A DNA stretch of 43,700 nucleotides from positions 1-43,700 of IMG/VR virus record IMGVR_UViG_3300027747_000922. One strand, given 5' to 3'. Made by a program: the position numbers and the translations under genes. Shown piece by piece: positions 7,111-35,275 of the stretch (position 1 is the first letter of the stretch; the number at the start of each line of letters is the position of its first letter). This DNA is from a virus. Below the pieces are notes generated by a model. The model saw only the letters and a list, made by a program, of their open reading frames with translations, made no database searches and was not told the origin of the DNA.

Positions 7111-7650
7111 ATGGCAACCAATAACCACTACGTTAATAATGCCGATTTTCTTGCTGCGTTAATTAAATATAAAAGTGATTGTGTAGAAGCAGAGAAGAAT
7201 GATAAACCTGAACCAAAAGTACCAAATTATATTGGTGAATGTTTTCTAAAAATTGCTGAACATCTATCCCGCAAACCAAACTTTATCTCATATACTTATC
7301 GTGATGAGATGATTTCTGATGGTGTAGAGAATTGCATCATGTATTTTCGTAATTTTGATCCAGACAAATCAAAGAACCCATTTGCATACTTTACTCAGAT
7401 AATTTACTACGCTTTCCTTCGTAGAATTATGAAAGAAAAGAAACAATTATATGTAAAGTATAAAGCTACTCAACAGTTTGGGTTACTTGATGAAGGTGAG
7501 ATGTTTGAAGATGAAAATGGTAACATGAAACAGTTTGAACTGTATGACAATATTTCCGAATTCATCTTTAATTTTGAAGAGAATAAGAAAAAGAAAAAGG
7601 CAAAGAAGTCGGAAGGGCTTGAATCTTTCTTACAAGATGATGTAGAATAG
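7111..7650 (+). CDS. gp55: Late sigma factor gp55
   Basis: 179 residues (T4 gp55 185). It directs host RNA polymerase to TATAAATA late promoters with gp33 and the gp45 clamp. Y-R-D-E-M-I-S-D-G-V-E-N and F-D-P-x-K-S-x-N-P-F-A-Y-F-x-Q-I are the sigma region 2 equivalent. The C-terminus is lysine-rich then L-E-S-F-L, a short hydrophobic/acidic tail like the clamp-binding end of gp55. ATG 7111 is chosen; the longer frame extends into the methyltransferase. A TATAAATA core at 35285 gives it a plausible target. Confidence 0.9.
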   Translation: MATNNHYVNNADFLAALIKYKSDCVEAEKNDKPEPKVPNYIGECFLKIAEHLSRKPNFISYTYRDEMISDGVENCIMYFRNFDPDKSKNPFAYFTQIIYYAFLRRIMKEKKQLYVKYKATQQFGLLDEGEMFEDENGNMKQFELYDNISEFIFNFEENKKKKKAKKSEGLESFLQDDVE

Positions 7651-7673: not shown

Positions 7674-8201
7674 ATGAAATTAGAATTTTGTGCAGTTTGT
7701 GGAATTACTACAGACCTTCAACAGCATCATATTGAACCTGTAATACTTACAGGTATTAGTAGGAAAAAAATAAAGAGGTATGATGGTAATAAGCCATTAA
7801 AAGAATGTGACTCGATGGAAGTTTTTGCTTTTCTATTCGATCAAGGAATAATTTCTGATGATGGTGAATTAACCGTCTGCTCTTTTCACCATAATATACT
7901 TCATGGTATTGTCAAGTTTCAAAAAGCAAAATTAGGAACTTTAATTAAAGAAGGCCAATTACGAGCAAAGGAGAATGGTGTTACGATAGGACGACCTACT
8001 AAACTTAATTTTGATATTTATGAGAGAATTGAAACTATGAGAGATGACGGTATGGGTATCAAAGCCATTGCAAGAAAATTACGAATTGGTGTTGGAACTG
8101 TTTATTCTGCAATTGATAAAATAGAAAAAGGTATTATTCAAGATTTACAAAGAAAAAAATTAATAGAAGAAAACCCAGCAACATTTGTTGATTTAATTTA
8201 A
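7674..8201 (+). CDS. HNH-type zinc domain fused to resolvase-like HTH
   Basis: 175 residues. The N-terminal half has C6-x2-C9, H18-H19, C69 and H72-H73/H77, an HNH-like zinc/nuclease pattern. Residues ~85-150 contain A-K-E-N-G-V-T-I-G-R-P-T-K followed by a helix-turn-helix with G-I-K-A-I-A-R-K-L and T-V-Y-S-A-I. That is how serine resolvases end (GRP linker plus HTH_7). I infer a homing-type endonuclease with a DNA-binding tail. It sits between gp55 and gp47 and is very AT-rich (11 of 60 G/C in 8101-8160, versus 26 of 60 in gp47 at 8341-8400), which suggests insertion. Confidence 0.6.
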   Translation: MKLEFCAVCGITTDLQQHHIEPVILTGISRKKIKRYDGNKPLKECDSMEVFAFLFDQGIISDDGELTVCSFHHNILHGIVKFQKAKLGTLIKEGQLRAKENGVTIGRPTKLNFDIYERIETMRDDGMGIKAIARKLRIGVGTVYSAIDKIEKGIIQDLQRKKLIEENPATFVDLI

Positions 8202-11140: not shown

Positions 11141-11717
11141 GATATTAACGATTGATACCGCAGCAGGCATACAAACAACCGAAAAGATCGATCCATTACC
11201 ACTGTTTGGTGAAGATTATCCAATGTTACTTACTGTAATGCCAGAATATAAAGGTGGATTTCCCAGTCCAAGTATGGTAATGTTGGCAAAGAGAATGAAG
11301 ATGACCATGAAATTATATGGTGGTATTGGACTATCTGCCAATCAATGTGGGGTATCAGAAAGAATGTTTGTTATTGGTACGGACGAATTTCAAATGGTTT
11401 GTATAAACCCAAAAGTAATAAAGAAATCCGAAACTGCCGTTAAGAACAAGGAAGGTTGTCTTTCTTATCCGGGTTTATTTTTAAGTATTGACAGACCAGA
11501 CTGGATTGATGTAGAATATACAGATGAGTTTGGTAATACTAAAGAAAGTAGACTTGAAGGTGTAAGTGCTCAATGTTTCCTACACGAACTAGATCACTTA
11601 AACGGTATCAAGTTTGTTACTTATGTCAAACCAATTGCGTTACAGATGGCAAGAAAAAAACAAAAGAAAACCGTAAAAACAATTGTGAGAAAAGCAAAAA
11701 ATGGCCAAAATAGATGA
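11133..11717 (+). CDS. def: Peptide deformylase
   Basis: 194 residues. All three deformylase motifs are intact: G64-I-G-L-S-A-N-Q71, E107-G-C-L-S111 and H151-E-L-D-H155. The metal ligands would be C109, H151 and H155. The enzyme removes the formyl group from new N-terminal methionines. Phage versions are known from cyanophages and vibriophages. Unlike many phage deformylases it has a basic C-terminal extension (about 25 residues, rich in K/R), which might bind RNA or ribosomes (inference). It overlaps the DUF4338 gene by 17 nt. Confidence 0.92.
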   Translation: MSEILTIDTAAGIQTTEKIDPLPLFGEDYPMLLTVMPEYKGGFPSPSMVMLAKRMKMTMKLYGGIGLSANQCGVSERMFVIGTDEFQMVCINPKVIKKSETAVKNKEGCLSYPGLFLSIDRPDWIDVEYTDEFGNTKESRLEGVSAQCFLHELDHLNGIKFVTYVKPIALQMARKKQKKTVKTIVRKAKNGQNR

Positions 11718-13032
11718 TGTAGAAGTACAATGGACAAAATTTTTAGAAGAAAATCCTTCCGATTCATTGCCTGTTGTTGATGAAAATGCCTTGCGTGAAC
11801 GTATGATTAAAGAATTAACATATGTTTCTGCAATGGATGTTAAAGAATATACATTATACCAAAAATGGCATGAAATTCATACTAAATTTCCAAGCAAAAC
11901 TATAAATACATTGTTCGATGGAGAAGAAACTTTCCTGGCCGACCCTGTACAGGCAAAATATATTGCTGAAGCTAAAAGTAATATTTGGATTCCTGAATCT
12001 GTAGATGATTACATGGACTTGGAACCAGTGCTTGAATATACGGACGATTCAAGTAAAGGTTCCAAAAAAGGTATCGATGGTTCAGTAGTATCATATAATA
12101 TTGAACGAAACAAAGAGTTATCTATTCGTTGTAATGCCTTAAAAAGTTTTATTACAAATGGACGTAATAACAGTAACATTGGACGAAATCTTCACTTCAT
12201 AGTAAAAGACAATAAGACAAATAAATATCTTGGTGTAATTACAATTTCATCCGACTTTCTTGACTTGACGCCACGTGATAAATATATTGGTTGGGATAGA
12301 ACACTAAAAACGCAAGGTGGTATGATTAACCACACAGGTATAGGTTCATCAATTGTACCAACACAACCACTAGGTTACAATTATGTTGGTGGTAAACTTC
12401 TATCTTTATTGTGTCTTTCAGATGAAGTTCAACGTTTATGGAAAGAACAATACGGCGACATTATGGTTGGCGTTACAACTACATCATTATATGGAAACAC
12501 TAAGGTGGGTGGATTATCTCAATATGATGGGTTAGATTATTGGAATAAAATGGGATTCACCGCAGGTTCTGTATCATATGAACCTGAGAGGGAAACAATT
12601 TATTTAATTCGTGATTGGTTAAAAACCAAACACACACGTAAATACTTTGAATGGTATATTGCAACGAAATCAACTGGTCAACCATACAAACGTGACCACA
12701 AAAATCGTTCATTACAATTTGTTTATGCACAGATGAAAATTCCAAAAGAATTGATTCGTTCAGATCATGCTAGAGGTATTTACTTTAGTGAACTGTACAC
12801 AAACACAAATGAATTTTTACGTGGAGAAATTAAAGAAGATAGGTTGGTCAAAAAATTTGATTCAAGTTATGAAAATCTTGTAAAGATTTGGAAAGAGAAA
12901 CATGCACGTGGTCGTATCGGTTTTTTAAAGAAAAAAGATAAAGTATCCAAAGACATTTTGTTCCTTGATGATTTGATTTATATGAATTGGCAAGAAACGA
13001 AGGATAAGTACCTATCCCAGATCGGACGTTAA
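11701..13032 (+). CDS. DruA-like (DUF4338) protein, copy 1
   Basis: 443 residues. The core runs from ~161: G-R-N-L-H-F-I-V, Y-L-G-V-I-T-I-S-S, R-D-K-Y-I-G-W, then Y-N-Y-V-G-G-K-L-L-S-L-L-C-L-S, T-T-S-L-Y-G and S-Q-Y-D-G. The order matches my recollection of DUF4338/PF14236, the family of DruA from the Druantia anti-phage system (G-R-x-L ... R-D-x-W-I-G-W ... Y-G). The protein at 34160 shares the second half. Biochemical activity of DruA is not settled. It follows deformylase with a 17-nt overlap. The C-terminus is basic. The DUF4338 link is remote. Confidence 0.6.
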   Translation: MAKIDDVEVQWTKFLEENPSDSLPVVDENALRERMIKELTYVSAMDVKEYTLYQKWHEIHTKFPSKTINTLFDGEETFLADPVQAKYIAEAKSNIWIPESVDDYMDLEPVLEYTDDSSKGSKKGIDGSVVSYNIERNKELSIRCNALKSFITNGRNNSNIGRNLHFIVKDNKTNKYLGVITISSDFLDLTPRDKYIGWDRTLKTQGGMINHTGIGSSIVPTQPLGYNYVGGKLLSLLCLSDEVQRLWKEQYGDIMVGVTTTSLYGNTKVGGLSQYDGLDYWNKMGFTAGSVSYEPERETIYLIRDWLKTKHTRKYFEWYIATKSTGQPYKRDHKNRSLQFVYAQMKIPKELIRSDHARGIYFSELYTNTNEFLRGEIKEDRLVKKFDSSYENLVKIWKEKHARGRIGFLKKKDKVSKDILFLDDLIYMNWQETKDKYLSQIGR

Positions 13033-16889: not shown

Positions 16890-16924
16890 AATTTTTAAAA
16901 CCCTTGTTATATAAGGAAAATATT

Positions 16925-18295
16925 ATGAAAGTCAACAAAGTAACTCTTGGTATTGATCGCCAATATCCCTTGATAAGTGACAAAATTGCGGCCTTCCGCA
17001 ACAAAACTGTCCTAGACAAATCTTTCAATCGTAGTGCTTGTTGGGACAAAAACCAAGAATCACGTTATATTACTTCATTGATTACTGGTCAAGCACCATC
17101 TAAAATCATTGTTGCTAATATTGATGAATGCTTAAAACAAGCTCTTGAAGATACCCTTGACCATGAATATTTTAGCAATTTCTCTCAAATGGGATATGAC
17201 AAAATTGCTATTGATGGTAACAATCGTACACAAACAATTTTCAAATACCTGAATGGAGAAGTTGTCATTCAAAATGGACAATATGATTTACCAGATTTAC
17301 CTGTTGTAATTAATAACAACAATAACACATTCAAAACACATCCTAAGGCATTAAAAGATCACATTCGTAATAATGTAACTGTTACAATTTGTGAATATGT
17401 TATTGCTACAAGAGAAGATTTATCTCGTTTGTTTATTAATATTAATGATGGTTACACACTAAACGATCAAGAAATTCGTAATGCAATTCTTGTTCCTTTT
17501 GCTGAATATGTCCGTCAAATGTCTGAGAAACATGCAAACGCATTCAAATATATTTTTCGTAATGGTAATTTTCGTTTGAAACGTGATGAACAAATGGTCA
17601 ACTTATCAGTATGCTCTACTTATGGTCCTGCTCATGGCATTTCCAAAAAAGACAAATTCGAGGCATATGAAGATAACTCCACCGTTTGGACACATATTCT
17701 AAAAAAAGGTGGACAGAAAAATATTTCTGATGCACTTACGTTGATTGAAAAGTATGCTGACAAAGGATTCAAAGATACCTCAACTTTGACCAACTTTTTT
17801 ATGTTAATATGTCATATCAACAAAGAGAAAATTAAAATCTTAGATGAGAAAGCATTCTTCAAATGGTTTATGGCAACAGAAAACAAACGTGTTGCTAATG
17901 TTGACCGCAAAATTGTTACCTTGCAAAATGGTACTGAACTAAACTATAATGCAACAGGTTCTGCGGCTTCATCAATCTTTTTACCTGCTCGTTTTGAAAT
18001 CATCTTAGAAGATTTTGCAAAGATTCCAAAAGGTATCGTTACTGATGTTGATCCTGAGAGATTGTTTACACCAGTGCAGAGATATCAAGCGTGGGTAAAC
18101 CAAGGTGGTATTTGCCCACGTACAGGTAAAAGTATTTCGGAAGATGAAATCAATAACCACAATTTGTGGGCAGCTGATCACGTGATACCTTATTCAAAAG
18201 GTGGTAAAACTAACTTAGATAATTTAGAATTGGTTTGCCGCAAATACAACGAGTCTAAGGGCAATAGACCTGCAAAGAAATTAATTGCCGCATAA
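16925..18295 (+). CDS. DUF262-HNH nuclease (GmrSD-like)
   Basis: 456 residues from ATG 16925 with AAGGA upstream. The N-terminal DUF262/ParB-like NTPase fold is marked by D97-G-N-N-R101 (D-G-x-x-R is diagnostic) and F-I-N-I-N-x-G-x-x-L-N-x-x-E-x-R-N. The C-terminal HNH-type nuclease has C397, A-D418-H419-V-I-P, G-G-x-x-N-L-x-N-L and Y-N-x-x-K-G-N-R. The order is that of type IV (modification-dependent) restriction proteins such as GmrSD and BrxU, though those are longer. It has its own promoter and leader hairpin. Whether it cuts host DNA or competing phage DNA is not visible. Confidence 0.8.
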   Translation: MKVNKVTLGIDRQYPLISDKIAAFRNKTVLDKSFNRSACWDKNQESRYITSLITGQAPSKIIVANIDECLKQALEDTLDHEYFSNFSQMGYDKIAIDGNNRTQTIFKYLNGEVVIQNGQYDLPDLPVVINNNNNTFKTHPKALKDHIRNNVTVTICEYVIATREDLSRLFININDGYTLNDQEIRNAILVPFAEYVRQMSEKHANAFKYIFRNGNFRLKRDEQMVNLSVCSTYGPAHGISKKDKFEAYEDNSTVWTHILKKGGQKNISDALTLIEKYADKGFKDTSTLTNFFMLICHINKEKIKILDEKAFFKWFMATENKRVANVDRKIVTLQNGTELNYNATGSAASSIFLPARFEIILEDFAKIPKGIVTDVDPERLFTPVQRYQAWVNQGGICPRTGKSISEDEINNHNLWAADHVIPYSKGGKTNLDNLELVCRKYNESKGNRPAKKLIAA

Positions 18296-25860: not shown

Positions 25861-28392
25861 ATGTCAAAATATTACACCAATGTTGCCGTACATGGCAATC
25901 ACATATTGTTTCGTGGTGTAAACAACGGTCGGAGAGTTAAAGGCAAAGTGCCATACTCTCCGACTTTGTTTTTACAGTCTAACAAATCCACCGAATGGCG
26001 TTCATTGTTTAATGAACCATTGGAGGCTATGAAATTTGAAACCATCAGAGAGGCAAGAGACTTTGTTAAACGTTATGAAGAAGTTTCAAACTTTAAAATC
26101 TATGGTAATACAAGGTATGAATACGCATTCATTGCTGACAACCATAGAGGTATCATTGATTGGGATATTTCTGATCTATCAGTTACAATAATTGATATTG
26201 AAGTTGGTTCAGATAATGGTTTTCCTGATCCATATAAAGCAAATGAACCAATCACTGCCATTGCGATTCACCAATTGAATGGTGGCACTACAGTCTATGG
26301 TTGTGGTGAGTATAAAGTTCAAGGTGAAGAAATCTATATTAAATGTAAAGATGAAATTGATCTATGTAAAAAGTTTCTTACTGATTGGTCTGATAATTGT
26401 CCTGACGTTGTAACTGGTTGGAATACAAAGTTCTTCGATATACCTTATATTGTTAATCGTTTGACACGTGTACTTGGTGAAGATAGTGTTAAGAAACTAT
26501 CGCCTTGGGGTGTGTATTCTGAACGTAAAACAGTTTTCAAAGGCAGAGAACAAACTGTTTATGATATTGTCGGTGTTGCTGCACTTGATTACATGGAACT
26601 ATACCAATGGTATGCACCAGGCGGTAAGTCACAAGAATCATATCGGCTGGATAATATTGCACAAGTAGAACTTGGTGAAGGTAAGATTGCATATGATGAC
26701 TATGACAACCTGCACCAACTTTATAAACAGAACTATCAGTTGTTTATTGAGTATAACATTAAAGATGTACATTTGATTCTGAAGATGGAAGATAAGTTGA
26801 AGTTGATTGAATTGGCTTTGACTCTTGCATATGATACCAAGTGTAACTATGATGATGTATTTGCACAAACAAGAATGTGGGATGCACTGATCTATTCCTA
26901 TCTACTTAATAAAAAGATAATTGTACCGCCACGCCGTATCAGTAAGAAATCTGAAGCCTTTGAGGGTGCATATGTTAAAGACCCGCAAGTAGGTTTACAT
27001 AATTGGGTTGCATCATTCGATTTGAACTCTTTGTATCCGCATTTGATGATTCAATACAATATTTCACCAGAAACGTTGGTTGATATAGACGATTACACCG
27101 ATGAAATGAGAGAAGTAATTTCTAACGGTGTTTCAGTTGATGACTTGTTAATGAAACAGGTAGATACTTCCGGGCTTACTAATGTTACATTGACACCTAA
27201 TGGTCAATTTTTCCGTACTGATGAACAAGGTTTTCTTCCTACGATGATGGAAGAAATGTATGAAGATCGTAAGAAGTTTAAGAAGTTGATGTTGAAGTCT
27301 CAACAAGACTATGAAGATGAAAGTGATCCAAAGAAAAAATATGAAATAGAGAAATTGATTGCACGATATAATAATCTTCAGTTAGCAAAGAAAGTTTCAT
27401 TGAACTCTGCTTATGGTGCGATGGGTTCACAGTATTTCCGATTCTATGATTTGAGACAGGCACTTGCAGTTACCTCTGCTGGTCAGTTGTCTATTCGTTG
27501 GATTGAAAACAAACTAAACGAATATCTAAACAAACTACTGAAAACTGAAAAAGATTATGTTATCGCCTCTGATACAGATTCAATTTATCTCAATCTTGGT
27601 CCTTTGGTTAATAGTGTCTACAAAAAAGGAAAAGAAACTTCAGCAATTATCTCCTTCATGGATAAGGTCTGTGAAGATAAAATTCAACCGTTTATTGATG
27701 AGAGTTATAAAGAACTTTCTGACTATGTACATGCGTATGACCAAAAAATGATTATGAAACGTGAAGGTCTTTCAGATAAAGGTATCTGGACTGCCAAGAA
27801 ACGTTACATTCTCAACGTGTACAATAATGAAGGTGTTCAGTATAATGAACCTCACCTTAAAGTTATGGGTCTTGAGATGATCAAATCATCTACACCTGCA
27901 CCTGTTCGTGAGAAAATGCGCCAACTGATTAAGTTGTTGATGATTGCTGAAGAATCAGATATTCAAGAGTTTATTGCCAACTTTAAAGAAGAGTTTAAAA
28001 CTTTACCTGTAGAAGAAGTTTCTTTTCCACGTGGTCTTAATGGTCTGAAAGAATATTCAGATTCAAAAACATTATATAAAAAAGGCACACCTATTCATGT
28101 TAAAGGTGCAATTCTATATAATCATTTTCTAAATGAAAAGAAACTGACTACAAAGTATCAGTTGATTCGTGAAGGTGAAAAATTAAAATTCACGTATCTC
28201 AAATCACCTAATCCATTTAAAGATACAGTAGTTTCTTTTCCAACACGATTACCAAAAGAGTTTGGTCTGCAAGAATATATTGATTACGATACTCAGTTTG
28301 ATAAAACCTTTTTAGAACCCGTTAAAGTTATTCTTGATTGTGTTGGTTGGCGAGCTGAGAAACAATCTACATTGGAGAGTTTTTTTGGATGA
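25861..28392 (+). CDS. gp43: DNA polymerase gp43 (family B)
   Basis: 843 residues (T4 898). Proofreading domain: Exo I D112-I-E114, then N-T-K-F-F-D-I-P-Y and Y-N-I-K-D-V. Polymerase: motif A F-D387-L-N-S-L-Y-P, motif B K-K-V-S-L-N-S-A-Y-G (~510-520), motif C D-T-D-S near 571-574. Length and uninterrupted motifs show no intein or split gene. The C-terminus ends T-L-E-S-F-F-G, a clamp-binding peptide of the gp45-partner type. The ribosome site is unusually weak. The stop overlaps the next ATG. Confidence 0.95.
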   Translation: MSKYYTNVAVHGNHILFRGVNNGRRVKGKVPYSPTLFLQSNKSTEWRSLFNEPLEAMKFETIREARDFVKRYEEVSNFKIYGNTRYEYAFIADNHRGIIDWDISDLSVTIIDIEVGSDNGFPDPYKANEPITAIAIHQLNGGTTVYGCGEYKVQGEEIYIKCKDEIDLCKKFLTDWSDNCPDVVTGWNTKFFDIPYIVNRLTRVLGEDSVKKLSPWGVYSERKTVFKGREQTVYDIVGVAALDYMELYQWYAPGGKSQESYRLDNIAQVELGEGKIAYDDYDNLHQLYKQNYQLFIEYNIKDVHLILKMEDKLKLIELALTLAYDTKCNYDDVFAQTRMWDALIYSYLLNKKIIVPPRRISKKSEAFEGAYVKDPQVGLHNWVASFDLNSLYPHLMIQYNISPETLVDIDDYTDEMREVISNGVSVDDLLMKQVDTSGLTNVTLTPNGQFFRTDEQGFLPTMMEEMYEDRKKFKKLMLKSQQDYEDESDPKKKYEIEKLIARYNNLQLAKKVSLNSAYGAMGSQYFRFYDLRQALAVTSAGQLSIRWIENKLNEYLNKLLKTEKDYVIASDTDSIYLNLGPLVNSVYKKGKETSAIISFMDKVCEDKIQPFIDESYKELSDYVHAYDQKMIMKREGLSDKGIWTAKKRYILNVYNNEGVQYNEPHLKVMGLEMIKSSTPAPVREKMRQLIKLLMIAEESDIQEFIANFKEEFKTLPVEEVSFPRGLNGLKEYSDSKTLYKKGTPIHVKGAILYNHFLNEKKLTTKYQLIREGEKLKFTYLKSPNPFKDTVVSFPTRLPKEFGLQEYIDYDTQFDKTFLEPVKVILDCVGWRAEKQSTLESFFG

Positions 28393-28934
28393 AAAATATT
28401 CGTATAATTAAAACTGGCATTAACGTTTCAAAGATAAAGAAACAATTAGAAGAACATGCGTCTGATTGGAATTATCAGAAAGAACTGCAACATGCCACGG
28501 TACTTGATCCAGATGTTTATCTAAGCCAAAGTGGTGTGTTGCAATTAGTAATTGGCACGATTGATAAACCTGGTGATTATGTATTTGATTCTGAAGGTTG
28601 TATGGAAGCACCAGCATATTACCGACATACTGAAGCTGTTTCATTTATGAAACGACATTTCAAAGATTTTAAACGGTGTGGATTTCTTTCTATACCTGTA
28701 GGTGGTGAAGTTGGCAAACATATTGATTTTGGCACTTATTACCTTAATAAAGACAGATATCACTTGTCAATACAAGGTCGTTACGTGTATACTGTAGGAG
28801 ATGAAAGTTTAGTTGTTGAGCCAGGTACATTATTTTGGTTTAATAATAAATTAGAACACTCTGCCAAAAACATAGGAGACAATGTACGCATCACGTTAGT
28901 ATTTGATGTGCCACATAATAAACGCAATCCATGA
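28389..28934 (+). CDS. Aspartyl/asparaginyl beta-hydroxylase family protein
   Basis: 181 residues. H111-x-D113 in G-K-H-I-D-F, R-Y-H-L-S-I-Q-G (123-130), H157 in L-E-H-S-A and R167 in N-V-R-I-T-L-V-F-D. This is the cupin-type 2OG-Fe(II) dioxygenase core of Asp/Asn beta-hydroxylases, here as a stand-alone catalytic domain. It probably hydroxylates a protein side chain; target unknown. Coupled to gp43 by ATGA and to the membrane protein after it. Confidence 0.8.
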   Translation: MKNIRIIKTGINVSKIKKQLEEHASDWNYQKELQHATVLDPDVYLSQSGVLQLVIGTIDKPGDYVFDSEGCMEAPAYYRHTEAVSFMKRHFKDFKRCGFLSIPVGGEVGKHIDFGTYYLNKDRYHLSIQGRYVYTVGDESLVVEPGTLFWFNNKLEHSAKNIGDNVRITLVFDVPHNKRNP

Positions 28935-29839
28935 TACATGCTATATTACCATTTCTGACTGCAATTGCTTTATCTACTATCGCAGCATACTATTCAGTAA
29001 TAGGTCTTGCACAGATATTTCCAGGTTCATATTGGCCGATTATTATTATGGGTTCGGTACTTGAAGCAGCAAAATTGGTAACAGTATCTTGGCTACATAC
29101 TCATTGGAAAGATACATTCTCCGCATTAAAAGTATATTTTCTAATTGCTGTTATACTACTCATGGCAATTACATCGATGGGTATTTTTGGTTATTTGTCA
29201 AAAGCACATATCGAACATTCTACTGGTATCACACCACTGATTGAAAAGGAAATGATTTATGAGGAGAAGATTAAAACCCTCAAAGAGAGCATCGAGACTA
29301 ATCGCAAAAATGTCTTACAGTTGGATGCGGCGGTTGACCAAGTCATGGCACGCTCAACGGACGAAAGGGGTGCAGAGAGGTCGAATCAAATCCGCAAAGC
29401 CCAACAGAAAGAGCGCACACGAATCTCTGATGAGATTGCTAGGTCGCAGACCGAAGTACAGAAAATTACGGAAGAAAAGTCTCCTATATCATTGGAAATT
29501 AAAAAGGCTGAATCAGACTTGGGGCCTATAAAATATGTTGCTGAAGTAGTTTACGGCACACAAGATCGTGATTTGATTGATAGAGCAGTTAGATTAGTGA
29601 TCTTTGTTATTATTGTAGTATTTGATCCACTTGCAGTATTGTTACTAATTGCCTCTAATCAAACGTATCGTAGATTGAAAGATAAACCTGAAATAGAAAT
29701 CAAAAAGGTAGTGAAGAAGAAAAAGATTGACAAGAAGGATGGTCCTAGTTTAGAATCCTTCTTTGTAGATGATAAACATCAAGTAATACCGAAAGATAAA
29801 ATTGCTGATATGAATGGAGAAATGAATGAGCGTTCTTGA
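28931..29839 (+). CDS. Membrane protein with coiled coil
   Basis: 302 residues. Three hydrophobic segments (about 4-27, 35-56, 66-90), a long charged coiled coil (105-200), a fourth segment (220-242) and a Lys-rich then acidic cytoplasmic tail. No enzyme motif. The last residues (G-E-M-N-E-R-S) are read from a 24-bp direct repeat that also carries the next ORF start. Similar membrane/coiled-coil proteins occur in aquatic T4-like phages. Host-membrane action is inferred. Confidence 0.75.
   Translation: MIHAILPFLTAIALSTIAAYYSVIGLAQIFPGSYWPIIIMGSVLEAAKLVTVSWLHTHWKDTFSALKVYFLIAVILLMAITSMGIFGYLSKAHIEHSTGITPLIEKEMIYEEKIKTLKESIETNRKNVLQLDAAVDQVMARSTDERGAERSNQIRKAQQKERTRISDEIARSQTEVQKITEEKSPISLEIKKAESDLGPIKYVAEVVYGTQDRDLIDRAVRLVIFVIIVVFDPLAVLLLIASNQTYRRLKDKPEIEIKKVVKKKKIDKKDGPSLESFFVDDKHQVIPKDKIADMNGEMNERS
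29816..29839 (+). repeat. 24-bp direct repeat, left copy
   Basis: Perfect 24-base match to 30859-30882, starting GGAGAAATG and ending CGTTCTTGA; bases on both sides differ. It contains the ribosome site, the ATG and the first codons (M-S-V-L) of the methyltransferase; the right copy holds the same signals of uvsX. Repeat start-to-start distance is 1043 bases. Confidence 0.95.
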
Positions 29840-30689
29840 ACAGAAGGAAAAATATGAAAGAGTTGATTTTCTATCCACATATGGAATAATTCCATATTCA
29901 ATATGGGAAACCGAAAACGCTAAATTTTCAAATTCTATATTGAAAGAATTGAAAGAACGAAATGGAGAATCAACTAGAGAAAACACATTGAAAAGTTTTG
30001 GCGGTGCAGGAAAAAAAACAGCATATACTTCAACTACAAGTTATTTCAATCCTAATCTTTGTAAGATAATATATTCGTCATATTGTCCACCAAAAGGTAA
30101 AATATTTGATCCGTTTTCTTCTGTAGTTCGTCCATATATGGCAAAAAGTTTAAGATATAACTATGTCGGCTGTGAAATTCGTGAGAGTGAAGCAGAAAAA
30201 ATTCAAAAAATATTAGATAATTCTTTTATTTTTGGTGAAGAATGTAGTGTCAATGTTCATAATATAGATTGTAGAAAATTTCAAACAGATGAAAAGTTTG
30301 ATTTGATTTTTACCTGTCCTCCATATTGGACATTAGAAACCTATTCACAAGAAGAAGGAGATATTAGTAATATTTCCGACTATAAAATGTTTCTATCAGA
30401 AATGGAAAATGTTTATAGAAAATGTCTCTCTTTAATGCATGAAAACTCATATTGTTGTTTTGTTGTTGCAGATTTTAGAGATTACACTGAAGGTAGAAAA
30501 CTTGTAAACAGGCTTGTTCCATTTGTGTCGGATATGATAAGATGTGGAGAAGATGCTGGTCTTGTTTTATACGATAAAGTTATACTAAAAAAACCTATAG
30601 GAACAGCACCATCAAGATTAAAGTTGTGGAATAATAGAAAAACTGTTAGAATACATGAAGAACTTTTAGTTTTTAGGAGAGAAATGTGA
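29826..30689 (+). CDS. DNA methyltransferase (N6-adenine/N4-cytosine type)
   Basis: 287 residues. Motif IV T163-C-P-P-Y-W168 and a motif I-like F94-D-P-F97 followed by Y-N-Y-V-G-C-E; the order IV after I needs checking for class. The F-x-G-x-G glycines are replaced by F-S-S-V-V, unusual. C-P-P-Y-W variants occur in phage and plasmid DNA methylases. AT-rich (rows at 30061 and 30181 hold 16 and 15 G/C of 60; uvsX at 31021 holds 26). Its start is a duplicate of the uvsX start, so the gene is probably inserted. Likely protects phage DNA. Confidence 0.7.
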   Translation: MSVLEQKEKYERVDFLSTYGIIPYSIWETENAKFSNSILKELKERNGESTRENTLKSFGGAGKKTAYTSTTSYFNPNLCKIIYSSYCPPKGKIFDPFSSVVRPYMAKSLRYNYVGCEIRESEAEKIQKILDNSFIFGEECSVNVHNIDCRKFQTDEKFDLIFTCPPYWTLETYSQEEGDISNISDYKMFLSEMENVYRKCLSLMHENSYCCFVVADFRDYTEGRKLVNRLVPFVSDMIRCGEDAGLVLYDKVILKKPIGTAPSRLKLWNNRKTVRIHEELLVFRREM

Positions 30690-30868
30690 TTACAAATTAT
30701 GAGAAGTCTGTGTCAATTTATGAAACGGGAGGTCAATATGCTGTTTATAAAGCAGTGGAAAAAGGACACCTATACGCAGATTCATGGCAAAAGTGTTTGC
30801 CGTGTGAAGATAAAACACCACATGAAGTAAATATATGTTTGGTTTGCGGAACACAACAGGAGAAATGA
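30686..30868 (+). CDS. Small zinc-ribbon-like protein, 60 aa
   Basis: 60 residues from GTG 30686 (GGAG upstream), overlapping the methyltransferase stop. C-L-P-C and C-L-V-C-G (two CxxC knuckles about 12 residues apart) suggest a zinc ribbon. Its end is read from the right direct repeat region, so it belongs to the same inserted segment or marks its edge. Function unknown. Confidence 0.6.
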   Translation: MITNYEKSVSIYETGGQYAVYKAVEKGHLYADSWQKCLPCEDKTPHEVNICLVCGTQQEK

Positions 30869-30882
30869 ATGAGCGTTCTTGA
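30859..30882 (+). repeat. 24-bp direct repeat, right copy
   Basis: Identical to 29816-29839. Contains the ribosome site, ATG 30869 and first codons (M-S-V-L) of uvsX. Confidence 0.95.
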
Positions 30883-31930
30883 TAAGTTGAAAAAGAGTTC
30901 AACGATTAAAGAGACTTCCATACTTGCGAAGTCTCAATTCTTTACTGAGAAAGATATGATTCAAACTGATGTGCCTATTGTAAACGTGGCACTATCAGGC
31001 AATCTAGATGGTGGTCTGACACCAGGTCTGACTATGTTTGCAGGTCCATCAAAACACTTTAAGACGGCATTTGCTTTGTTGATGGCATCTGCTTATATGA
31101 AGAAGTATCCGGATGCGGTAGTTCTATTTTATGATTCTGAGTTTGGCACACCACAGAAATACTTTGAAACATTTAATATTGACACTGACCGTGTTCTACA
31201 CACACCGATCACTGACGTTGAACAATTGAAACATGATATCATGGTGCAGTTACAACAGATTGAAAAAGGTAATAAAGTTATTATTATTCTTGATTCAATT
31301 GGTAATCTAGCATCAAAGAAAGAAGTTGATGATGCAACAGAAGGTAAGACTGTTGCAGATATGAGTCGTGCAAAGCAAATGAAGTCGTTGTTCCGTATGG
31401 TCACACCACACTTGACTATCAAAGATATTCCAATGATTGTGGTAAATCACACATACAAAGAGATTGGTTTGTATCCTAAAGACATCGTTGGTGGTGGCAC
31501 AGGTTCTTACTACTCAGCAGATACAATTTGGATTCTTGGTCGTCAGCAAGAAAAAACCGGCACCGAAATCACAGGATATAACTTCATCATCAACGTTGAG
31601 AAATCACGTTTTGTTCGTGAGAAGTCTAAGATACCTGTAACAGTTTCATTTGATGGGGGCATCAATAAGTATTCTGGTCTACTTGATATTGCACTTGAAG
31701 GTAACTTTGTACAAAAACCATCTAATGGTTGGTATGCAAAGGTCAACCAAGATACAGGTGAGATTGGTGACAAGAAACGATTAGATGATACACAGAATGC
31801 TGAATTCTGGAATGATATTCTTGCTAATGAGAAATTTAAAGAATATGTAAGGAAGAGATATGAGATCACGTATAGTAGCATTCTTGGACAAGATACAGTT
31901 TTGGAAAAAGAAGATGTCTCAGAAGTATGA
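30869..31930 (+). CDS. uvsX: UvsX recombinase
   Basis: 353 residues (T4 391). RecA-like strand-exchange ATPase with Walker A G59-P-S-K-H-F-K-T66 (the non-canonical T4 form), Walker B V-I-I-I-L-D-S-I-G-N-L, V-V-N-H-T and G-G-G-T-G-S-Y-Y-S-A. It acts with UvsY in recombination-dependent replication. The C-terminus overlaps the next gene by 17 nt. Confidence 0.93.
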   Translation: MSVLDKLKKSSTIKETSILAKSQFFTEKDMIQTDVPIVNVALSGNLDGGLTPGLTMFAGPSKHFKTAFALLMASAYMKKYPDAVVLFYDSEFGTPQKYFETFNIDTDRVLHTPITDVEQLKHDIMVQLQQIEKGNKVIIILDSIGNLASKKEVDDATEGKTVADMSRAKQMKSLFRMVTPHLTIKDIPMIVVNHTYKEIGLYPKDIVGGGTGSYYSADTIWILGRQQEKTGTEITGYNFIINVEKSRFVREKSKIPVTVSFDGGINKYSGLLDIALEGNFVQKPSNGWYAKVNQDTGEIGDKKRLDDTQNAEFWNDILANEKFKEYVRKRYEITYSSILGQDTVLEKEDVSEV

Positions 31931-33594: not shown

Positions 33595-34154
33595 GTTACG
33601 TGAAATATTATGATAATGTTTTGCCTAAGACATTTTGTGATTCTGTTATAAAGAAGTTTGAGAATCATCCAAAACAACACAGAGAAACCTTTTTAGAAGG
33701 GCATCGTTCATTCACCGAATTAAATTTGAATGAGAACATTGTAAGTTGGAAATCTGAAATAGACTATCTAGTAAGCACGATGCAAACCTATATGGATGTG
33801 TATAAGAAGGATGTCGGTGTTGATTTGATGGCATGGCCAGAAAACTTTGGATTTGAACAATTAAGGATGAAACGATATCTACCAAACGATCAAGATGAGT
33901 TTAAGTTTCATGTAGATGTACAAGACTATGCCTCAGCACGTAGATTTTTGGTATTTTTTTGGTATCTGAATGATGTGGAAGAAGGTGGACAGACAGCATT
34001 TCAACTCAACAGAAATCAACCGGTTAAAGTTAAAGTACAACCTAGAACAGGTCGCTTGCTAATGTTTCCACCATTGTGGACACACCCACATGTGGCATTC
34101 AAACCAGTAGATGTACCAAAGTATATTGTTGGTGGTTACTTACATTACGTTTAA
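33591..34154 (+). CDS. 2OG-Fe(II) oxygenase (prolyl-hydroxylase-like)
   Basis: 187 residues. H107-V-D109 (F-H-V-D-V), distal His H165 or H167 (W-T-H-P-H-V), and K177 where Arg usually binds 2-oxoglutarate. Y-L-N-D-V-E-E-G-G-Q-T-A-F (125-137) is the typical strand. Coupled to gp41 by ATGA. The Lys at the oxoglutarate site is a known variant in the P4H family. Target unknown. Confidence 0.85.
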   Translation: MSYVKYYDNVLPKTFCDSVIKKFENHPKQHRETFLEGHRSFTELNLNENIVSWKSEIDYLVSTMQTYMDVYKKDVGVDLMAWPENFGFEQLRMKRYLPNDQDEFKFHVDVQDYASARRFLVFFWYLNDVEEGGQTAFQLNRNQPVKVKVQPRTGRLLMFPPLWTHPHVAFKPVDVPKYIVGGYLHYV

Positions 34155-34159
34155 AAATT

Positions 34160-35275
34160 ATGAATCTAACTAGAGATCAAGCAGTATATTGTGCTAACAT
34201 CTATTCAAAATACTTTGATAAATTTCAGAGAATTGATGATTATATTCGTGATCAAAAACTAAATTCTTTATCTGAAAGACCTCCTACTTTGTTTGGTATG
34301 GGACCAGAAGAAGATTTATTTTCAGACTTTGATATACACCCACAAGATATGGAGTTTGAACTTGTAGAACTACCACAAAATAATTGGGACATTTATTTGA
34401 ACATGATTTCTTCACATTCAAATATGACTAGTATTCCTGGTAGATGTTTTCGTTTGGCAGTACAAGAAAAGAATACAAAGAAGTGGGTTGGTTTCATTCG
34501 TTTGGGTTCTCCTGTTATTAACATGAAACCAAGAAATGAAATGTTGGGTGGTGTATTTTCTCAAACACCCGAATCTGCAAAGTCATTTAATCACACATCG
34601 ATTATGGGTTTTGTGATTGTACCTTCACAACCCTTTGGTTTTAATTACCTTGGTGGTAAACTACTTGCTGCAATCTGTTGTTCACATTGGGTCAAAGAAA
34701 AGTTAGATGCAAAGTATGACATGAATACCTGTTTGTTTGAAACGACAAGTCTTTATGGCAGTTCAAAGTCATCATCACAATATGATGGCATGAAACCATA
34801 TTTAAGATTCAAAGGTTTGACTGACAGCAATTTCTTACCAATGATGCACGGTAAACCTTATGATGATTTAAAGAACTATGTTGAGAATGCGATTGGTGAA
34901 TTCGTACCTGCTGATGCATCATCACGTAAACTGAAAGTCTCAAACGCAATCATTTCAATGACTAAAGTGGCATTGAAAGGTTCACCAGAAGGTGAGAAGT
35001 TTGCACAGACTGTGGAGAATGCCTTGTCATTGACAGAAAAGAAACGATACTATGCCTCAAATTATGGTTACAGTAACTTTACAGATGTGGTCATGGGTAA
35101 AACGGACAAATTGATTCCAGACAAGGAGAACTATGATAAGTTTCATCTGGAGACGATCATAGACTGGTGGAAGAAGAAATCAACGACCAGATATGATACA
35201 CTCAAGTCTGAGAATAGGCTACGCTCCGAGATAGAAGTATGGACAGGCGAAAAAGAACTTGACATTATCAGGTAA
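34160..35275 (+). CDS. DruA-like (DUF4338) protein, copy 2
   Basis: 371 residues from ATG 34160; the longer reading frame runs back into the oxygenase. It shares with the 11701 protein R-C-F-R-L-A-V / W-V-G-F-I-R-L-G-S, the block N-H-T-S-I (identical NHT), Q-P-F-G-F-N-Y-L-G-G-K-L-L, T-T-S-L-Y-G-S-S-K and S-Q-Y-D-G-M. The C-terminal ~140 residues are basic and unrelated by eye. The same remote DUF4338 link holds. One-base-scale spacing to the oxygenase suggests cotranscription. Confidence 0.55.
   Translation: MNLTRDQAVYCANIYSKYFDKFQRIDDYIRDQKLNSLSERPPTLFGMGPEEDLFSDFDIHPQDMEFELVELPQNNWDIYLNMISSHSNMTSIPGRCFRLAVQEKNTKKWVGFIRLGSPVINMKPRNEMLGGVFSQTPESAKSFNHTSIMGFVIVPSQPFGFNYLGGKLLAAICCSHWVKEKLDAKYDMNTCLFETTSLYGSSKSSSQYDGMKPYLRFKGLTDSNFLPMMHGKPYDDLKNYVENAIGEFVPADASSRKLKVSNAIISMTKVALKGSPEGEKFAQTVENALSLTEKKRYYASNYGYSNFTDVVMGKTDKLIPDKENYDKFHLETIIDWWKKKSTTRYDTLKSENRLRSEIEVWTGEKELDIIR

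Follow-up and report, generated by a model that had tools for sequence, protein, structure and literature searches.

Apparent gain of a methyltransferase gene, with duplication of the uvsX start, between two overlapping genes of a T4-like phage

How can a foreign gene be added between two core genes that overlap, with neither of them being damaged? For T4-like phages, there is little documentation of how foreign genes come in where core genes are tightly packed or overlap; in particular, the agents of lateral gene addition in T4-related genomes are little known, and the junctions usually carry no familiar signature (PMC2993671). The question is raised here by one locus in a 43,700-nucleotide stretch of viral DNA, the whole of which we call the window, where a DNA methyltransferase gene and a small open reading frame (ORF) lie between a membrane protein gene and uvsX. 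An earlier note on this DNA had claimed that the start of uvsX occurs again further upstream, and indeed we find a perfect 24-bp direct repeat, GGAGAAATGAATGAGCGTTCTTGA, the two copies of which begin 1043 bp apart and match without a single mismatch (Table 1). The locus is preceded by a DNA polymerase ORF and by a gene of beta-hydroxylase-like type, and downstream of uvsX there is a DnaB-like helicase ORF, named by its sequence.

Table 1. Features of the locus, with positions in the window
Feature	Position	Strand	Remarks
Membrane protein gene	28931..29839	+	ORF; last 8 codons, including the stop, are the left repeat copy
Left copy of the 24-bp repeat	29816..29839	+	ribosome site, ATGAGCGTTCTTGA; terminates on the membrane-gene stop
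DNA methyltransferase gene, 287 aa	29826..30689	+	N6/N4 amino-methyltransferase type, motif TCPPYW; starts inside the left copy
60-aa ORF	30686..30868	+	CxxC...CxxC, zinc-ribbon-like by eye; stop inside the right repeat
Right copy of the 24-bp repeat	30859..30882	+	uvsX ribosome site, start and first codons
uvsX, RecA-like recombinase	30869..31930	+	PF21134 1.5e-14, PF00154 2e-9, phrog_97 9.5e-89; start inside the right copy
Net insert relative to the empty site, 1043 bp	29840..30882 (equivalently 29816-30858)	+	window minus this segment aligns gap-free to the closest relative, L001

How long a repeat would chance produce? In sequences simulated from the window with an order-3 Markov model, exact repeats within 3 kb peaked at 13-17 nt over 60 runs, and at any distance no repeat exceeded 18 nt in 30 runs, as compared with the 24 nt observed. 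Moreover, it is the only repeat in the window that scores at least 18 within 2.5 kb, and elsewhere in a 146-kb sister contig, in the parts sampled, all local repeats with such scores lie in low-complexity stretches resembling repetitive structural genes. What is more, the boundaries of the repeat coincide with functional boundaries. Namely, the 24 bp consist of the 10 nt 5' of the uvsX ATG, with its GGAG ribosome site, and of a 14-nt gene overlap. A shorter duplication would truncate either the end of the membrane protein or the start of uvsX, and the observed length is therefore the smallest unit that spares both. The boundaries would have been set by selection for an intact membrane gene and an intact uvsX, and their coincidence with function, being explainable by selection, is not proof of any one mechanism. 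The claim that the membrane protein ends within the left copy holds to the last base, while the accompanying idea that it could end against uvsX is refined: in relatives the two genes do more than adjoin, overlapping by 14 nt, the membrane stop lying exactly that far inside uvsX in 17 of them, checked codon by codon.

What does the locus look like where the methyltransferase is missing? Among 80 uvsX loci collected from IMG/VR, the closest relative is L001, with an identity of 97.5% across 4.5 kb on the downstream side and of 98.6% across the 138 bp that it offers upstream. It has a single copy of the repeat and a membrane gene that continues straight into uvsX, without the methyltransferase/zinc-ribbon cassette. 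Once the 1043 bp are taken out of the window, the two align across the junction with no gap. Upstream of the junction L001 differs from the window at two positions only (29780 and 29821), and past the repeat the first 180 uvsX bases are the same in both. This one-copy arrangement, in which the membrane gene and uvsX are directly joined, is what the earlier note had set beforehand as the expectation for relatives free of the methyltransferase, and the empty site in L001 supports its reading of the locus as an insertion of a methyltransferase plus zinc-ribbon gene accompanied by duplication of the uvsX start. Every close relative seen has one copy and no cassette, and the membrane-gene homologues adjoining uvsX in close relatives are 73-94% identical. 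No relative was seen with two copies and no methyltransferase, and the cassette is carried by some relatives, not by all, which likewise agrees with that expectation. Overall, the membrane gene and uvsX occur without a methyltransferase between them in 54 loci, being adjacent in most; in three of the 54, a different insert of about 0.6 kb separates the two. The membrane gene/uvsX interval holds 2OG-oxygenase inserts in L029, L030 and L065, and at these no retained duplication was found. In the window, the duplication separated two overlapping genes and damaged neither.

The repeat itself bears on the direction of this change. L001 and most relatives read GGAGATATG, the common T variant, and both window copies read GGAGAAATG. 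As the two copies share the same A variant, they would both derive from one local A-bearing sequence. In IMG/VR the exact A-variant repeat is present in occupied contigs only (twice in L089, twice in L090 and once in L088, the last because this contig begins inside the small ORF), and no empty site bearing it, i.e. no product of precise excision, is found there. The cassette as such is present in three separately named contigs, L081, L090 and L088; L088 matches the window with zero mismatches over 6.3 kb and L090 with one over 13.8 kb. Judging from these sequences, the direction of change is a gain of the cassette with duplication.

We regard it as probable that a foreign methyltransferase gene and a small ORF were inserted recently at the membrane gene/uvsX overlap, within the polB-to-uvsX cluster of a T4-like phage, via illegitimate recombination or template switching together with selection. 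In the course of this, the 24 bp made up of the uvsX ribosome site and the 14-nt overlap would be duplicated. The left copy would preserve the C-terminus and the stop of the membrane protein, the right copy would preserve the uvsX start, and the left copy would in addition hand the methyltransferase a ribosome site, an ATG and four codons. T4-like phages replicate by recombination, and it is in the course of this replication that illegitimate recombination or template switching at microhomology would act as the agent, with the survivors being only those products that spare both overlapping genes. Illegitimate repair at microhomology has been described in T4 (reviewed in PMC2988022), and ectopic insertion and illegitimate recombination are considered likely, poorly documented sources of new genes in T4-related genomes (reviewed in PMC2993671). 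The left junction includes the seven bases ACAGAAG. Profile searches recognised no transposase, integrase or nuclease in the cassette, with only the methyltransferase and the 60-aa ORF lying between the repeats, and neither of these ORFs matched GIY-YIG, HNH or LAGLIDADG.

The main rival to illegitimate recombination is an endonuclease acting in trans, or more generally a nuclease break at the uvsX start (staggered or resected, and made by such an endonuclease, a transposase or an integrase), the repair of which added the cassette with a target-site-like duplication. We consider this unlikely, given the lack of any recognised enzyme of this kind in the cassette and of reported terminal inverted repeats at it, and given that 24 bp is long for the target duplication of a transposase. 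That said, the phage does encode an HNH-type protein (16904-18295) and an HTH_7 protein (7674-8201), the duplication-flanked insert of L064 discussed below is itself GIY-YIG-like, and endonuclease-driven transfer has been proposed for T4 relatives (PMC2993671).

It is rather improbable, too, that the import was one-sided, coming from a donor already arranged as methyltransferase, small ORF and uvsX, such that the right side was exchanged by homologous recombination inside uvsX and only the left junction was illegitimate. T4-like phages recombine readily, and in L087, another phage, the methyltransferase occurs within this cluster as well. However, the 180 uvsX bases shared with L001 after the repeat leave no excess divergence on the right side, both copies carry the A variant that L001 lacks, and no such donor was seen. 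Could the two-copy cassette state instead be ancestral, with the relatives having lost the cassette by precise deletion between the repeats? Direct repeats of 24 bp can recombine in T4-like phages, but the single copy in all close relatives, the T variant of L001, where precise excision of A-bearing copies would leave A, and the confinement of the exact A-variant repeat to occupied contigs make this very improbable. Finally, although every sequence used is a metagenome assembly, it is very unlikely that an assembly chimera made the cassette junctions, since three separately named contigs, which as assemblies may share one source site, span one or both junctions in agreement, differing by no more than one mismatch over as much as 13.8 kb.

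Returning to a recent insertion by illegitimate recombination or template switching as the preferred reading, what did the phage acquire? The methyltransferase matches PF01555 above the curated cut-off (39.2 bits as against 26.7, E 1e-9), as well as phrog_12517 (1.6e-49) and PADLOC MTase_II (8e-16), and its best solved relative by sequence match is a putative modification methylase, PDB 2zie (1.3e-7). The catalytic motif of the (D/N/S/T)PPY type reads CPPYW and is conserved in relatives, the C before PPY being a variant of the usual D/N/S. The predicted structure is of low confidence (mean pLDDT 44.7). A profile search of bacterial genomes gave no relative, and no restriction endonuclease was recognised beside the gene, its neighbours being the membrane, small ORF and uvsX genes. 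The most likely role of the enzyme is methylation of phage DNA, plausibly as a protection from host restriction. The accompanying 60-aa ORF has a GTG start that overlaps the methyltransferase stop by 4 nt; it found no family above cut-off in profile searches and no phage match at E 1, and in IMG/VR it is confined to the three occupied contigs. The methyltransferase is AT-rich, as the earlier note had it, with a GC content of 29.8% compared with about 37% in the neighbours; the zinc-ribbon ORF, at 36.7%, is not.

The beginning of the methyltransferase carries a further trace of the event. Five relatives of 73-77% identity start with MSEKYERVDF or nearly so, and the window protein starts with MSVLEQKEKYERVDF. 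The residues MSVL, which are absent from the relatives and encoded by the copied uvsX start, therefore derive from uvsX, and these borrowed codons argue for the suggestion that the duplication supplied the new gene with a start signal. The predicted accessibility around the copied start equals that around the uvsX start (mean unpaired 0.61 vs 0.61), and translation of the methyltransferase would most likely begin at the copied start.

Elsewhere, another T4-like phage (L094) carries a member of the methyltransferase family flanked by an AAA gene on one side and a glycosyltransferase-like gene on the other, and in L083-L086 members of the family have unrelated surroundings. L087 comes from another phage, in whose corresponding gene cluster the methyltransferase directly precedes the membrane gene and the small ORF is missing. 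The proteins of L087 and the window are 84% identical for the methyltransferase fragment, compared with 74% for uvsX and 51% for the membrane protein, a contrast that is consistent with a later transfer of the methyltransferase. Just before the real uvsX start, L087 also contains a remnant-like, decayed second uvsX start (1180-1275, GGAGAATTAAAATGAGGTTACTT...), possibly the scar of an earlier insertion.

Is the locus the only one of its kind? When about 790 kb of related loci were scanned for border repeats, one further case emerged in the polB-to-uvsX interval. Namely, in L064 the space from polB to the membrane gene holds a T5orf172/GIY-YIG-like ORF (2075-2727), the end of which repeats the last codons of polB (KTNSLESFFG and the stop) at 30/33 positions. 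A homologue at another site, in L116, ends in NTNTLIL instead. The tail of the L064 ORF would thus be a duplicated polB end, the newcomer being again joined to its neighbour's end, this time C-terminally. The decayed uvsX-like start of L087 is a weaker hint of border duplication. It is conceivable, if still doubtful, that T4-like phages recurrently gain genes in the replication cluster at gene borders, with border duplications of 20-35 bp that leave the neighbours intact and fuse the newcomer to a neighbour's end. Tentatively, what such a duplication supplies would be the uvsX start in the present case and, in L064, the polB C-terminal tail SLESFFG, which has the look of a sliding-clamp-binding motif.

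A candidate third border duplication was rejected. The Dam-type methyltransferase of phage C48C1 (L113:305-1189), also in the polB/uvsX interval, ends in STLDAFFG where polB has TLEDFFG. At the DNA level the two agree in no more than 23/36 positions, and the alignments of homologues at other sites reach almost to that end, which makes a conserved functional tail more likely. In cyanophages, homologues of this methyltransferase align almost to the STLDAFFG end, and a clamp-type tail is probable.

Tails of a related appearance are seen in the window. A motif like that of sliding-clamp-binding peptides occurs in the tail of the membrane protein (PSLESFFVDD, 29747-29764) and is shared by the polymerase C-terminus (TLESFFG, 28369-28386) and by a sigma-factor-like ORF close to its end (GLESFL, 7615-7632). 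A loose form of the motif is present in 47 of the 60 rows of membrane-protein homologues. It may be that the membrane protein anchors the replication machinery at the membrane.

How does the locus compare with known systems? Like the lateral gene additions of T4-related genomes (PMC2993671), it has a foreign gene between core genes of the replication cluster, with no transposon signature, and the cassette is absent from close relatives that are otherwise syntenic; what differs is that here an almost identical empty site, together with a perfect duplication, defines the junction. Intergenic insertion in the replication cluster is shared with the free-standing homing endonuclease genes of T4-like phages (PMC2988022), but the cassette encodes a methyltransferase and not an endonuclease. 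The gene resembles the orphan amino-methyltransferases of phages (PF01555; phrog_12517) in its family, in TCPPYW and in having no restriction partner recognised beside it, and differs from them in its N-terminal extension copied from uvsX and in a small CxxC partner seen nowhere else. As to restriction-modification systems, the cassette contains no cognate endonuclease gene. As with insertion sequences, a direct repeat generated at the target flanks the cassette, and L001 and other relatives have a one-copy empty site. In contrast to them, no transposase was recognised, no inverted ends were reported, and the repeat is longer than usual and fitted to gene boundaries. In the literature searched we found no described phage insertion that duplicates a gene start, which does not prove that there is none.

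The locus is, in other words, an event of an expected sort seen at good resolution, and not a new kind of element. Its value is that the two junctions can be seen side by side with an almost identical empty site, that the direction of change can be read, and that a reason can be given for how long the duplication is. Along with L064, it suggests a rule: where genes overlap, an insertion would be viable only if it duplicates no less than the overlap and the ribosome site, the duplicated piece being incorporated into the new gene.

Several minor observations may be added. Two paralogous DruA-like proteins of the window (11701-13032 and 34076-35275) share an 85-nt segment at 71%; the former matches the Druantia DruA profile at 1.7e-17, and PADLOC DruA-like matches for the pair are 3.6e-17 and 2e-7. 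The HNH protein at 16904-18295, with weak GmrSD_N similarity, and the HTH_7 protein at 7674-8201, the N-terminus of which looks HNH-like by eye, are both candidate free-standing endonucleases. In two of the contigs that carry methyltransferase relatives, L084 (997-1067 and 1837-1908) and L086 (1766-1820 and 2527-2581), repeated promoter-like segments (TTGACA ... TATAAT-like) precede successive small genes.
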